NCBI RefSeq assembly: GCF_012515855.1
Contig: NZ_JAAYXO010000078.1
Span: 1-51,749 of the forward strand
Source of the DNA: Gordonia sp. (in: high G+C Gram-positive bacteria)
GTDB taxonomy: Bacteria; Actinomycetota; Actinomycetes; Mycobacteriales; Mycobacteriaceae
Reading direction: 5' to 3'
DNA: 51,749 nucleotides
Shown: positions 24,504-26,922 of the stretch, piece by piece
How positions within the stretch are numbered: position 1 is the stretch's first letter
How the letters are laid out: each line of letters starts with the position of its first letter
Program-made: the position numbers and the translations under genes
The notes under the pieces: model-generated
Database searches by the model: none
What the model was told of the DNA's origin: nothing
What the model saw: the letters and a program-made list of their open reading frames with translations, nothing else

Positions 24504-25115
24504 TCAGATGTAGAGCGCCGGATCCGCGTAGGGATCGTAGGCGGGCGGCGCATGCGTGGGTCGCGGGGCAGCGGCCGTCCCGACGGCGACGAACCCGGCG
24601 GGCACGTCGTGGACCACCACGGCGTTGGCGCCGATCTTGGCGTCGTCGCCGAGCGTGATGGGACCGAGGACCTTGGCGCCCGCGCCGATCAGAACGCGAT
24701 CGCCGACGGTCGGGTGACGCTTGCCCTTCGACATGCTGACGCCGCCCAGGGTGGATCCGTGGAACATCAGCACGTCCTCGCCGATCTCCGCGGTCTCACC
24801 GATCACCACGCCCATCCCGTGGTCGATGAACATCCGACGACCGATCTTCGCTCCGGGATGGATCTCGATACCGGTGAGAAACCGCGCGAACTGCGACAGC
24901 AGCCGGGCGGGCATCCGGGCGACGCCGCCGCTGGTCCACAGCCGATGCGAGACACGATGGATCCAGAGGGCGTGCACGCCCGGGTAGGCCAGCGCGACCT
25001 CGACCATCGAGCGTGCCGCCGGGTCCCGATCTTGCGCGGCACGCAGGTCTTCGCGCAGCGTGCGCAGGAGCGAATCCGACCTTCGCTCGGTTCGCGACTC
25101 ACTCCCGACAGACAT
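24504..25115 (-). CDS. cysE: Serine O-acetyltransferase
   Basis: Makes O-acetylserine from serine and acetyl-CoA, the substrate of CysK. 203 residues: N-terminal helical region with [29 protein letters not shown], then left-handed beta-helix hexapeptide repeats with catalytic histidines in [19 protein letters not shown] and [19 protein letters not shown]. The C-terminus ([14 protein letters not shown]) ends in Ile, as needed for insertion into the CysK active site in the cysteine synthase complex. ATG overlaps the cysK stop by one base (TGATG). The first ORF upstream of this is shadow. Confidence 0.96.
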
Positions 25116-26053
25116 CAGTCCACCAGTCCCTCGAACAGCGGCGTCGACAGGTAGCGCTCGCCGAAGTCCGGAAGCACCACGACGATGGTCTTGCCCTTGA
25201 GCTCCGGACGCTTGGCGATCTCCACCGCGGCGGCCAGGGCGGCGCCCGACGAGATGCCGACCAGCAGGCCCTCCTCGGTGGCGGCGCGGCGCGCCCACTT
25301 CAGCGCGGTCTCGGCGTTGATGTCGACGACCTCGTTGTACACCGTGGTGTCGAGGACCTCGGGGACGAAGTTGGCGCCGAGGCCCTGGATCTTGTGCGGG
25401 CCGGGGGCGCCGCCGTTGAGGATGGCCGATTCCTCGGGTTCCACGGCGAAGATCTTGACCTCGGGCTTGCGCTCCTTGAGGACCTGGCCGATGCCGGTGA
25501 TGGTGCCGCCGGTGCCGATGCCCGCGACCACCGCGTCGACGCCGCCGTCGGTGTCGGCCCAGATCTCCTCGGCGGTGGTGCGACGGTGGATCTCGGCGTT
25601 GGCCTCGTTGGCGAACTGACGAGCGAGCACGGCGCCGCGACGCTCCGAGGCGATCTTCTCGGCGGCATTGACCGCGCCGGCCATGCCCTCGCCCGCCGGG
25701 GTCAGCACCAGCTCGGCGCCGAATGCGCGGAGCAGCGCGCGGCGCTCCTTCGACATCGACTCCGGCATGGTCAGGACGACGTTGTAGCCGCGGGCCGCGC
25801 CGACCATCGCGAGCGCGATGCCGGTGTTGCCGCTGGTGGCCTCGATGATGGTGCCGCCCTTGGGGAGGTCGCCCGAGGCCTCGGCGGCGTCGACGATCGC
25901 GACGCCGATGCGATCCTTCACCGAGTTGGTCGGGTTGTAGTACTCGAGCTTGGCGAGCACGGTGGCCTCGGCGCCGTCGGTGATTCGGTTGAGGCGAACC
26001 AGCGGCGTACGGCCCATCAGGGCGGTGGCGTCGTCGAAGATGGTGGGAGACAT
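25115..26053 (-). CDS. cysK: Cysteine synthase A (O-acetylserine sulfhydrylase)
   Basis: PLP enzyme that makes cysteine from O-acetylserine and sulfide. 312 residues: [12 protein letters not shown] lysine in [11 protein letters not shown], phosphate/substrate loop [12 protein letters not shown], and the [15 protein letters not shown] glycine loop. First gene of the cysK-cysE operon. A leader of about 190 bases with a small ORF and an 11-bp inverted repeat precedes it, suggesting control by leader translation. Confidence 0.97.
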
Positions 26054-26089
26054 GGGGGTCCTTTGCGAATCGAATGCACCGGGGCCAGA

Positions 26090-26176
26090 AGTAGACCCGT
26101 TGCGGGTTTGCCTGGAATGCAGATGCCGACGACGACTGGACAGACCAGTGCGACGACGACGTCCGACGGGTCTACT
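26090..26176 (-). promoter_or_regulatory. Long-range inverted repeat in the cysK leader
   Basis: AGTAGACCCGT (26090-26100) and ACGGGTCTACT (26166-26176) are perfect 11-base complements about 65 bases apart, both upstream of the cysK start at 26053. In the transcript the 5' arm contains the leader ORF's TAG. A ribosome paused near the Cys codon would cover this arm and block pairing, which is the geometry of an attenuator or of translation-coupled control. Confidence 0.5.
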
Positions 26177-26246
26177 GACAGTGATCGGTGAGGAAGTACA
26201 CCGAATGTGCGAAAAGGGCGCGCGACAGGTGCGGGAACGGTTCCAC
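26172..26246 (-). CDS. Candidate cysK leader peptide (24 residues)
   Basis: A small ORF upstream of cysK on the same strand: GTG at 26246 preceded by a perfect AAGGAGG five bases away, 24 codons, TAG stop at 26172-26174. It begins MEPFPHLSR and its last residues are Thr-Asp-His-Cys-Gln, so a single Cys codon lies two codons from the stop. Its stop codon sits inside the distal arm of the inverted repeat described separately. Cysteine-responsive small ORFs are known upstream of sulfur genes in mycobacteria (poly-Cys type); this one is not poly-Cys, so the role is inferred from position and its strong ribosome-binding site. Confidence 0.5.
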
Positions 26247-26325
26247 CGCAGCCTCCTTGAGTCGTCTGATTCGCCTGCTCATAACGTTAACAGACGGCAG
26301 TCGACGGTTATTCCCCGCACTGCCG

Positions 26326-26922
26326 TCAGTCCATGCCGCGCGCGGCGAGCGTCTCGGCGAAGCCGTCGGCGGTCCGCAGCGCGGCGAGCACGGTCGGGGC
26401 GAGGAGCACGCGCGGCCCGGCGCGTAATCCGCGTGCTCGGCGTGCCTGATCCACCTGGGCGAGGACCTCGGCGATCAGCGGAATGCTGCGGATGGCGAGT
26501 GCGAACGTCATCGCGATCAGATCGGTGCGGACGCCGAAACGTTCCAGTGGACGCAGCGCGCTGACGATCGCGTCCAGCATGTCGGCGGTCCGCGTCGTCA
26601 ACGTCACGACCGCAGCGAGCGCCACGGAGGCGAGCAGGATCGCGCACACCACGAAGGCCCGCGCGGCGTCGGTGATGATCCACTGGAAGACGAACAGAAT
26701 GGCGAGCATCCACAGGACGCCGCGAATCTGCGACCACGCGTGACGTGGGTGCACTCGGGCGACGACGAACAGGGCGGCGCTGGTCGCGAGGGCGATCGCG
26801 GCGCTCATCGGCGTCCGGACCACGAGGGCGATCGTGATGATCGACGCGGTCAGCGCGAGGAACTTCAGGCCTGCGGGCAGCCGGTGCAGCAGCGAGTCGC
26901 CGGGGACGTAGAGGCCGATCAT
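26326..26922 (-). CDS. bioN: Energy-coupling factor transporter transmembrane protein BioN
   Basis: T-component of the biotin ECF transporter, 198 residues. Membrane helices around LKFLALTASIITIALVV, MSAAIALATSAALFVVA, VLWMLAILFVFQWII, AFVVCAILLASVALAAVVTL; the coupling motif region AQVDQARRARGLRAG with Ala-Arg-Gly matches the EcfT cytoplasmic helices that touch the ATPase. ATG overlaps the bioM stop (ATGA). Confidence 0.9.
   Translation of the reverse strand: MIGLYVPGDSLLHRLPAGLKFLALTASIITIALVVRTPMSAAIALATSAALFVVARVHPRHAWSQIRGVLWMLAILFVFQWIITDAARAFVVCAILLASVALAAVVTLTTRTADMLDAIVSALRPLERFGVRTDLIAMTFALAIRSIPLIAEVLAQVDQARRARGLRAGPRVLLAPTVLAALRTADGFAETLAARGMD

Follow-up and report, generated by a model that had tools for sequence, protein, structure and literature searches.

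The cysK-cysE locus and its leader

The window, that is, the whole stretch of 51,749 nucleotides of Gordonia sp. DNA that was analysed (contig NZ_JAAYXO010000078.1), carries on its minus strand the gene cysK, followed by a gene that we take to be cysE from recall and from its place (Table 1). Upstream of cysK lies a short open reading frame (ORF) of 24 codons, for which the initial annotation had claimed a perfect AAGGAGG five nucleotides before the GTG and the ending Thr-Asp-His-Cys-Gln-stop. The sequence bears out each of these features, with the GTG at 26246 and the TAG at 26174-26172. Long ORFs on the opposite strand overlap this leader region.

Table 1. Features of the cysK leader region and operon in the window
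Feature	Position	Strand	Basis or remarks
Predicted -10 element TAACGT (TANNNT)	26284..26289	-	TANNNT upstream of the leader ORF in 9/9 leader genomes
Shine-Dalgarno AAGGAGG of the leader ORF	26252..26258	-	Sequence; AGGAG at most 16 nt from the GTG in 9/9 genomes
Leader ORF, 24 codons, GTG..TAG	26172..26246	-	Kept without indels in nine genomes
Single Cys codon TGT, codon 23	26178..26180	-	TGT in 9/9 genomes
5' arm AGTAGACCCGT of the inverted repeat, contains the stop codon	26166..26176	-	Perfect complement of 26090-26100
Inner hairpin of P1 (ACTGG..CCAGT)	26135..26149	-	Predicted folds; inner hairpins of different sequence at a comparable position in each of the eight other genomes (by eye)
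Alternative hairpin P2 (CCAGG..ACCCG/CGGGT..TCTGG)	26085..26115	-	Overlaps the 3' arm; folds with a ribosome over the Cys codon or the stop
3' arm ACGGGTCTACT of the inverted repeat	26090..26100	-	Perfect complement of 26166-26176
Shine-Dalgarno AAAGGA of cysK	26059..26064	-	Predicted accessibility 0.54 free, 0.51 with a ribosome on the Cys codon
cysK (cysteine synthase A)	25115..26053	-	ORF; ATG at 26053; close ortholog in 13/59 Gordonia genomes
cysE homolog (serine O-acetyltransferase)	24504..25115	-	ATG overlaps the cysK stop by one base

Transcription would start near 26277, judging from the predicted -10 element. This TANNNT form lies at position -42 or -43 from the GTG in five of the genomes that carry the leader and at -57 to -60 in four, a finding to be weighed against shuffled 80-nt stretches, 12-64% of which have one. 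A consensus scan of the window detected no sigma-70-like site within 26030-26330, and a sigma-70 consensus promoter was absent in the three of nine leader genomes that were scanned; TANNNT was the only common element. Four genomes (G023, G057, G058 and G016) show, on inspection by eye, a small hairpin of the form GGCTG..CAGCC, or a variant of it, in the interval between the predicted -10 element and the leader Shine-Dalgarno (SD) sequence.

Close orthologs of this cysK, at least 79% identical, were present in 13 of 59 Gordonia genomes. The other 46 contained just a relative of 43-47% identity (E up to 1e-60), and the lack of the close ortholog in these genomes implies that cysteine synthesis may differ within the genus. 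In all 13 genomes a cysE homolog follows cysK and a bioN-like gene precedes it, the end of the latter lying about 45 to 620 nt from cysK. The leader was found upstream of cysK in nine of the 13, the remaining four having a short spacer and no leader. These nine are the genome of the window (G000); its nearest relatives G030 and G. hydrophobica (G017); G. sihwensis (G037); G. shandongensis (G036); and the four genomes of what we call subclade B, namely G. liuliyuniae (G023), G057, G. zhenghanii (G058) and G016. In a tree of cysK DNA, which was midpoint-rooted only, the nine leader genomes form one side of a branch with support 100/99. Despite the variable distance of bioN, the spacer between leader and cysK stays within 111-204 nt in the nine genomes. 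Since 46 genomes lack this cysK and four have it but lack the leader, the leader is dispensable.

G. shandongensis also harbors, just upstream of cysK (L022, 2448-2543), a tandem array of a 16-nt unit in 6.1 copies, which accounts for much of its longer spacer of 204 nt.

Conservation of the leader peptide

The nine leader ORFs share the same 24 codons, the GTG start, the SD sequence and the ending LTDHC-x-stop with no insertion or deletion. The start is fixed in G030, where a stop closes the frame 9 nt ahead of the GTG. Nonsynonymous divergence (dN) was lower than synonymous divergence (dS) in every pair for which dS could be defined, 35 out of 36; the pair left out was G036-G016, whose dS is undefined. 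Variable columns numbered 7, 7 and 17 at the first, second and third codon positions, each out of 23, and seven of the 18 variable codons differed by synonymous changes only; 61 of 5000 column permutations gave as many. In the two alternative frames, 0 of 23 and 1 of 23 variable codons were of this kind. Since dN is below dS in 35 pairs, the leader ORF very probably encodes a translated peptide under selection. The frame and the peptide end, whose conservation in close genomes had been proposed as a check on the annotation, are thus kept in nine of the 13 genomes with a close cysK, with selection acting on the amino acids.

A profile of the peptide, searched against 401 genomes of the family, gave nine clear matches (E 7.3e-17 to 6.7e-14), all upstream of Gordonia cysK, and nothing convincing beyond the Gordonia clade; five more matches with E 0.008-0.03 look like chance. 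No similar leader ORF was seen upstream of cysK in 57 of the 113 non-Gordonia genomes with a close cysK. A mechanical scan of these 57 upstream regions for ORFs with an SD sequence and the ending Cys-x-stop returned four, of which two run into cysK, one belongs to G352 and one is an ORF of G355 with a Cys run; all four are unlike the Gordonia peptide.

The nine peptides conform to the consensus MDxxxxLSxALFAHxVxLLTDHCx, in which 12 of the 17 residues at positions 7-23 are invariant vs none of the five at positions 2-6 (Fisher p 0.0096). His14, His22 and Cys23 are among the invariant residues, and the final residue before the stop varies between Q, L and R. Each peptide contains one Cys, always at codon 23 and always as TGT, a codon that makes up 29 of the 125 Cys codons in the long ORFs of the window with GC3 of at least 0.75. 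At the end of the ORF (26174-26189, minus strand) the sequence could also fold as ACCGAY-CACU-GUCNNU, with six of six pairs formed in two genomes and five of six in seven; such pairing could explain the use of TGT over TGC, as well as codon choice might.

The conservation of residues 7-23, and not of the Cys codon alone, means that a nascent-chain arrest peptide has to be considered. TnaC, of 24 codons and acting through Rho, ends in a fixed proline. In an analogous scheme, residues 7-22 of the Gordonia peptide would occupy the exit tunnel when Cys-23 or the stop codon is in the A site, and the signal that stalls the ribosome would be either Cys-tRNA or one of the sulfur metabolites cysteine, O-acetylserine and sulfide, so that the peptide, and not the codon alone, would be the sensor. 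The excess of invariant residues at positions 7-23, the selection on amino acids and the lone Cys adjoining the stop are all in line with this scheme, but the variable last residue is unlike that of TnaC, and conservation of the peptide equally fits a small functional protein or an overlapping RNA constraint. On balance we regard arrest by the nascent chain as possible though rather unlikely. Still more tentatively, the consensus peptide might be a cysteine- or sulfur-sensing arrest peptide that combines the nascent chain, the one Cys codon and a hairpin embedded in the stop; we know of no such mode of cysteine sensing, by nascent chain and one Cys codon with no Cys run.

The same conservation could reflect a functional small protein of 24 residues, for instance a partner of CysK or CysE or a metal-binding His/Cys peptide, whose position would be simply operonic. 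Purifying selection and the invariant His14, His22 and Cys23 would be expected of such a protein, yet it would need neither a structure after the stop that shows a compensatory change nor a separate spacer of 111-204 nt, and the clade-limited presence of the ORF and its tie to cysK fit a cis element. We consider this reading improbable.

The inverted repeat and the hairpin that opens at the stop codon

According to the initial annotation, the stop codon lies in one arm of a perfect 11-base inverted repeat, and the two arms are indeed exact reverse complements. The 5' arm takes in the final two bases of the Gln codon, then the stop, then six bases beyond it, and the 3' arm ends 36 nt before the cysK ATG. 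The repeat by itself is only mildly unusual: dinucleotide shuffling of the 205-nt region yielded a perfect inverted repeat of at least 11 bases in 3 of 500 cases, and of 516 tiles of that length covering the window, 13 contained one; in view of the latter count the repeat alone would not carry the case. Its exact arms are not conserved, not even in the nearest relatives G030 and G017. Conservation of the arms, on which the annotation would have relied, therefore failed in its literal form, but five genomes have a hairpin opened by the stop codon, with one compensatory change.

In these five genomes (subclade B and G036) the hairpin that we call P1 has a base stem of 7 bp whose first base is the G of the UAG stop. 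The stem reads GAGCGCC/GGCGCUC, except in G036, where GAGCGUC/GACGCUC amounts to one compensatory change from C-G to U-A, and it is paired in all five. When the whole P1 structure, taken from the fold of G023 and hence from one of the alignment's own sequences, was imposed on the alignment, 91.5% of the cells were paired vs 27-53% when the structure was slid. Changes on both sides were seen at three pairs, of which one belongs to the base stem and two to the inner helix, where 83% of the cells were paired; this number of changes was reached by 9 of 500 shuffles of the 3' letters, a proportion that the tool warns is not a probability.

Folding energies gave an uneven picture. The whole-leader fold of the window was not unusual (z -1.15, with 26 of 200 shuffles as good). 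For the stretch after the stop, z ranged from -3.15 to -3.56 in subclade B, whose members are close relatives so that their scores are not independent, and was -3.07 in G017, -1.80 in the window, -1.47 in G030, -0.89 in G036 and -0.23 in G037. When the stop region and the spacer were tested for duplex formation, the number of spacer shuffles (of 300) as good as the real sequence was 5 in the window, 14 in G030, 10 in G017, 30 in G023, 19 in G057 and 9 in G016, and the pairing was not significant in G037 (150), G036 (163) and G058 (90). P1 is well supported in subclade B, with fair support in the window and G017 and weak support in G030 and G037; in G036 it is the compensatory change that argues for it. 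The RNA structure part of the leader is thus real but uneven across the nine genomes.

An alternative hairpin, P2, was predicted in the window, where P2 and P1, or P2 and the long arm, are mutually exclusive; in subclade B the two hairpins coexist. Inspection by eye suggested a P2 of the form UCACG..CGUGA in G030 and G017 and of other sequence in G023, G058 and G016; its second half is missing in G057. A search of Rfam returned one match, on the opposite strand and at chance level (E 1.6).

Several of these observations could be read as a chance ORF and a chance fold in a high-GC spacer: an 11-base repeat is found in 13 of the 516 tiles, long ORFs run on the opposite strand, and the fold of the whole leader is ordinary. 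Chance would have to produce, against this, an ORF free of indels across nine species, its third-position bias, the outcome of the profile search and the compensatory pair, and we judge it very improbable.

Predicted effect of a ribosome in the leader

The effect of a ribosome was modelled with the Cys codon in the A site and with the RNA assumed to be blocked, relative to the first base of the P site, from 12 nt upstream to 16 nt. Without a ribosome, the stop region was predicted to pair with RNA lying over 25 nt downstream at 0.58 or more in seven of the nine genomes. In those seven a ribosome on the Cys codon lowered the value, from 0.86 to 0.31 in the window, a drop that is partly so by construction as blocked bases cannot pair. 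Little pairing of the stop region was predicted in G030 (0.16, and 0.24 with the ribosome) and in G037 (0.00). Pairing of the stop region with downstream RNA, as the initial annotation had it, is supported in most of the nine genomes.

The predictions bear also on the step at which expression would be affected. Translational attenuation, as in the mycobacterial leaders with Cys runs, would have pairing hide the cysK SD sequence and stalling expose it; the kind of gene and the layout are the same, and the mechanism is described in PMC13236596. A ribosome at the stop was indeed predicted to raise the accessibility of the SD by 0.17 in G023 and 0.11 in G016, but it lowered it by 0.31 in G058, and with a ribosome on the Cys codon masking of the SD was not predicted, the accessibility shift being at most 0.08 in all nine genomes. 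Both arms of the repeat in the window, moreover, sit away from the cysK SD. This makes translational attenuation an alternative of small probability.

Intrinsic termination fared no better, as neither it nor SD sequestration was supported by the predictions and terminator scans. No intrinsic terminator-like site was present in the three of nine leader genomes scanned, and in none of the nine did the spacer contain an 8-nt stretch with more than four T, that is, a U-tract. The spacer is, on the other hand, rich in C. The C/G ratio of the last 100 nt before cysK ranged from 1.44 to 2.56 in the nine leader genomes, the value of G036 being raised by its tandem array; in other cysK upstream regions of the family the median was 0.85, with 3 of 57 at 1.4 or above. 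The ratio of 1.39 for the window spacer is reached by 8.4% of the window's 118-nt stretches on both strands. The C-rich spacer suits loading of Rho, for which the C/G excess would be an indirect sign. The lack of a shift at the cysK SD, the lack of a terminator and the C-rich spacer favour an attenuator that acts mainly on transcription or mRNA stability.

A cysteine-responsive attenuator as the preferred reading

The reading that we prefer, with a probability of about 0.55, is that the leader would be a cis-acting, cysteine-responsive and ribosome-controlled attenuator of the cysK-cysE operon. With ample cysteine, the ribosome would pass codon 23, be released at the stop and leave; P1 would then form, and the leader would lower expression of cysK-cysE, probably through early termination of transcription within the C-rich spacer, in which Rho may take part. 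Under a shortage of Cys-tRNA, the ribosome would wait at codon 23, covering the stop and about 4 nt beyond, and would thereby hold the lower stem of P1 open so that expression continues; in the species of the window, the freed 3' arm could join P2 instead. The direction, more cysK at low cysteine, is that expected from the pathway, and what is least certain in the model is its output, be it termination, mRNA decay or translation.

In favour of the attenuator, the ORF is selected as coding sequence, the leader stays beside cysK, the lower stem of P1 begins at or near the stop in most of the nine genomes, and the Cys-rich leaders of the Rv2334A family, with similar ORFs in 2 of the 57 upstream regions, offer a precedent. 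Against it, only one Cys codon would make a weak sensor by codon counting alone, the arms of the repeat are not conserved, P1 is weak in some genomes, and the leader is dispensable.

Relation to known cysteine leaders

The nearest known counterpart is the Cys-rich leader peptide of the Rv2334A family (NCBIfam NF042939); Rv2334 is cysK1 of M. tuberculosis. As in this family, a short ORF lies upstream of cysK in all nine Gordonia genomes, the lengths on both sides falling within 22-24 residues; the Gordonia leaders differ from it in that its peptides end in Cys runs, whereas the Gordonia peptide has one Cys, an SD sequence and a predicted 5' UTR. The 35-bit cut-off of the family was passed in none of the 59 Gordonia genomes, four of which gave weak matches (E 0.02-0.09), none at the leader. 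At E up to 10, and with HMMER filters that drop most weak matches, neither the six of eight distinct leader peptides tried nor a 36-residue form from the window matched the model, and scans of NCBIfam as a whole returned nothing for these peptides. The missing match and the 0 of 59 genomes over the cut-off imply a design different from that of the Cys-run leaders, as had been proposed from the lack of a Cys run, which holds in all nine genomes. We therefore see the Gordonia leader as the counterpart of the mycobacterial Rv2334A cysK leader and not as a member of its family, in the same place and probably with the same purpose.

Short leaderless ORFs with poly-Cys have been described as cysteine-responsive attenuators (Canestrari et al. 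2020, as cited in PMC13236596 and PMC9094748). The Cys codons of such ORFs are described as lying near the ORF end upstream of cysteine genes, as in Gordonia; the ORFs are leaderless with Cys runs and a translational output, in contrast to the SD-led Gordonia ORF with its one Cys codon and no predicted masking of the SD. For Mycobacterium, Propionibacterium and Bifidobacterium, PMC1262725 describes candidate leader peptides of cys genes in which runs of Cys stand close to the stop; its authors found no conserved terminator and suggest Rho. The absence of a terminator is common to those leaders and the Gordonia one, the Cys runs are found only in the former, and Gordonia does not appear in the text of that paper. 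A Cys-rich ORF upstream of cysA2 in mycobacteria is mentioned in PMC4633059. For TnaC, described as an arrest peptide in PMC8429421 and PMC3902921, the likeness lies in a short leader with residues conserved throughout the peptide; stalling and ligand sensing would be putative in Gordonia, and the hairpin opening at the stop sets the Gordonia leader apart.

Among the matches listed from a limited literature collection, no publication dealt with a Gordonia cysK leader, nor did the titles and opening lines of abstracts name a cysteine-sensing arrest peptide with a single Cys. In actinobacteria, leader ORFs for cysteine have been recognized by their Cys-codon runs; in these genomes of a related genus, cysK carries a leader with a single Cys, a strongly conserved peptide and, in most of them, a hairpin that opens at the stop. 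The leader is a compact case for asking if one codon together with the nascent chain can sense cysteine, and it suggests that one gene, cysK, can have differently built leaders in different genera.

Cys-run ORFs upstream of cysK were also observed in two genomes of another genus of the family (G355 and G363, on L117 and L119). With 161 and 213 nt between their ends and the matched cysK start, against spacers of 111-204 nt in Gordonia, these ORFs belong to two of the 57 family upstream regions and resemble NF042939 below its cut-off.
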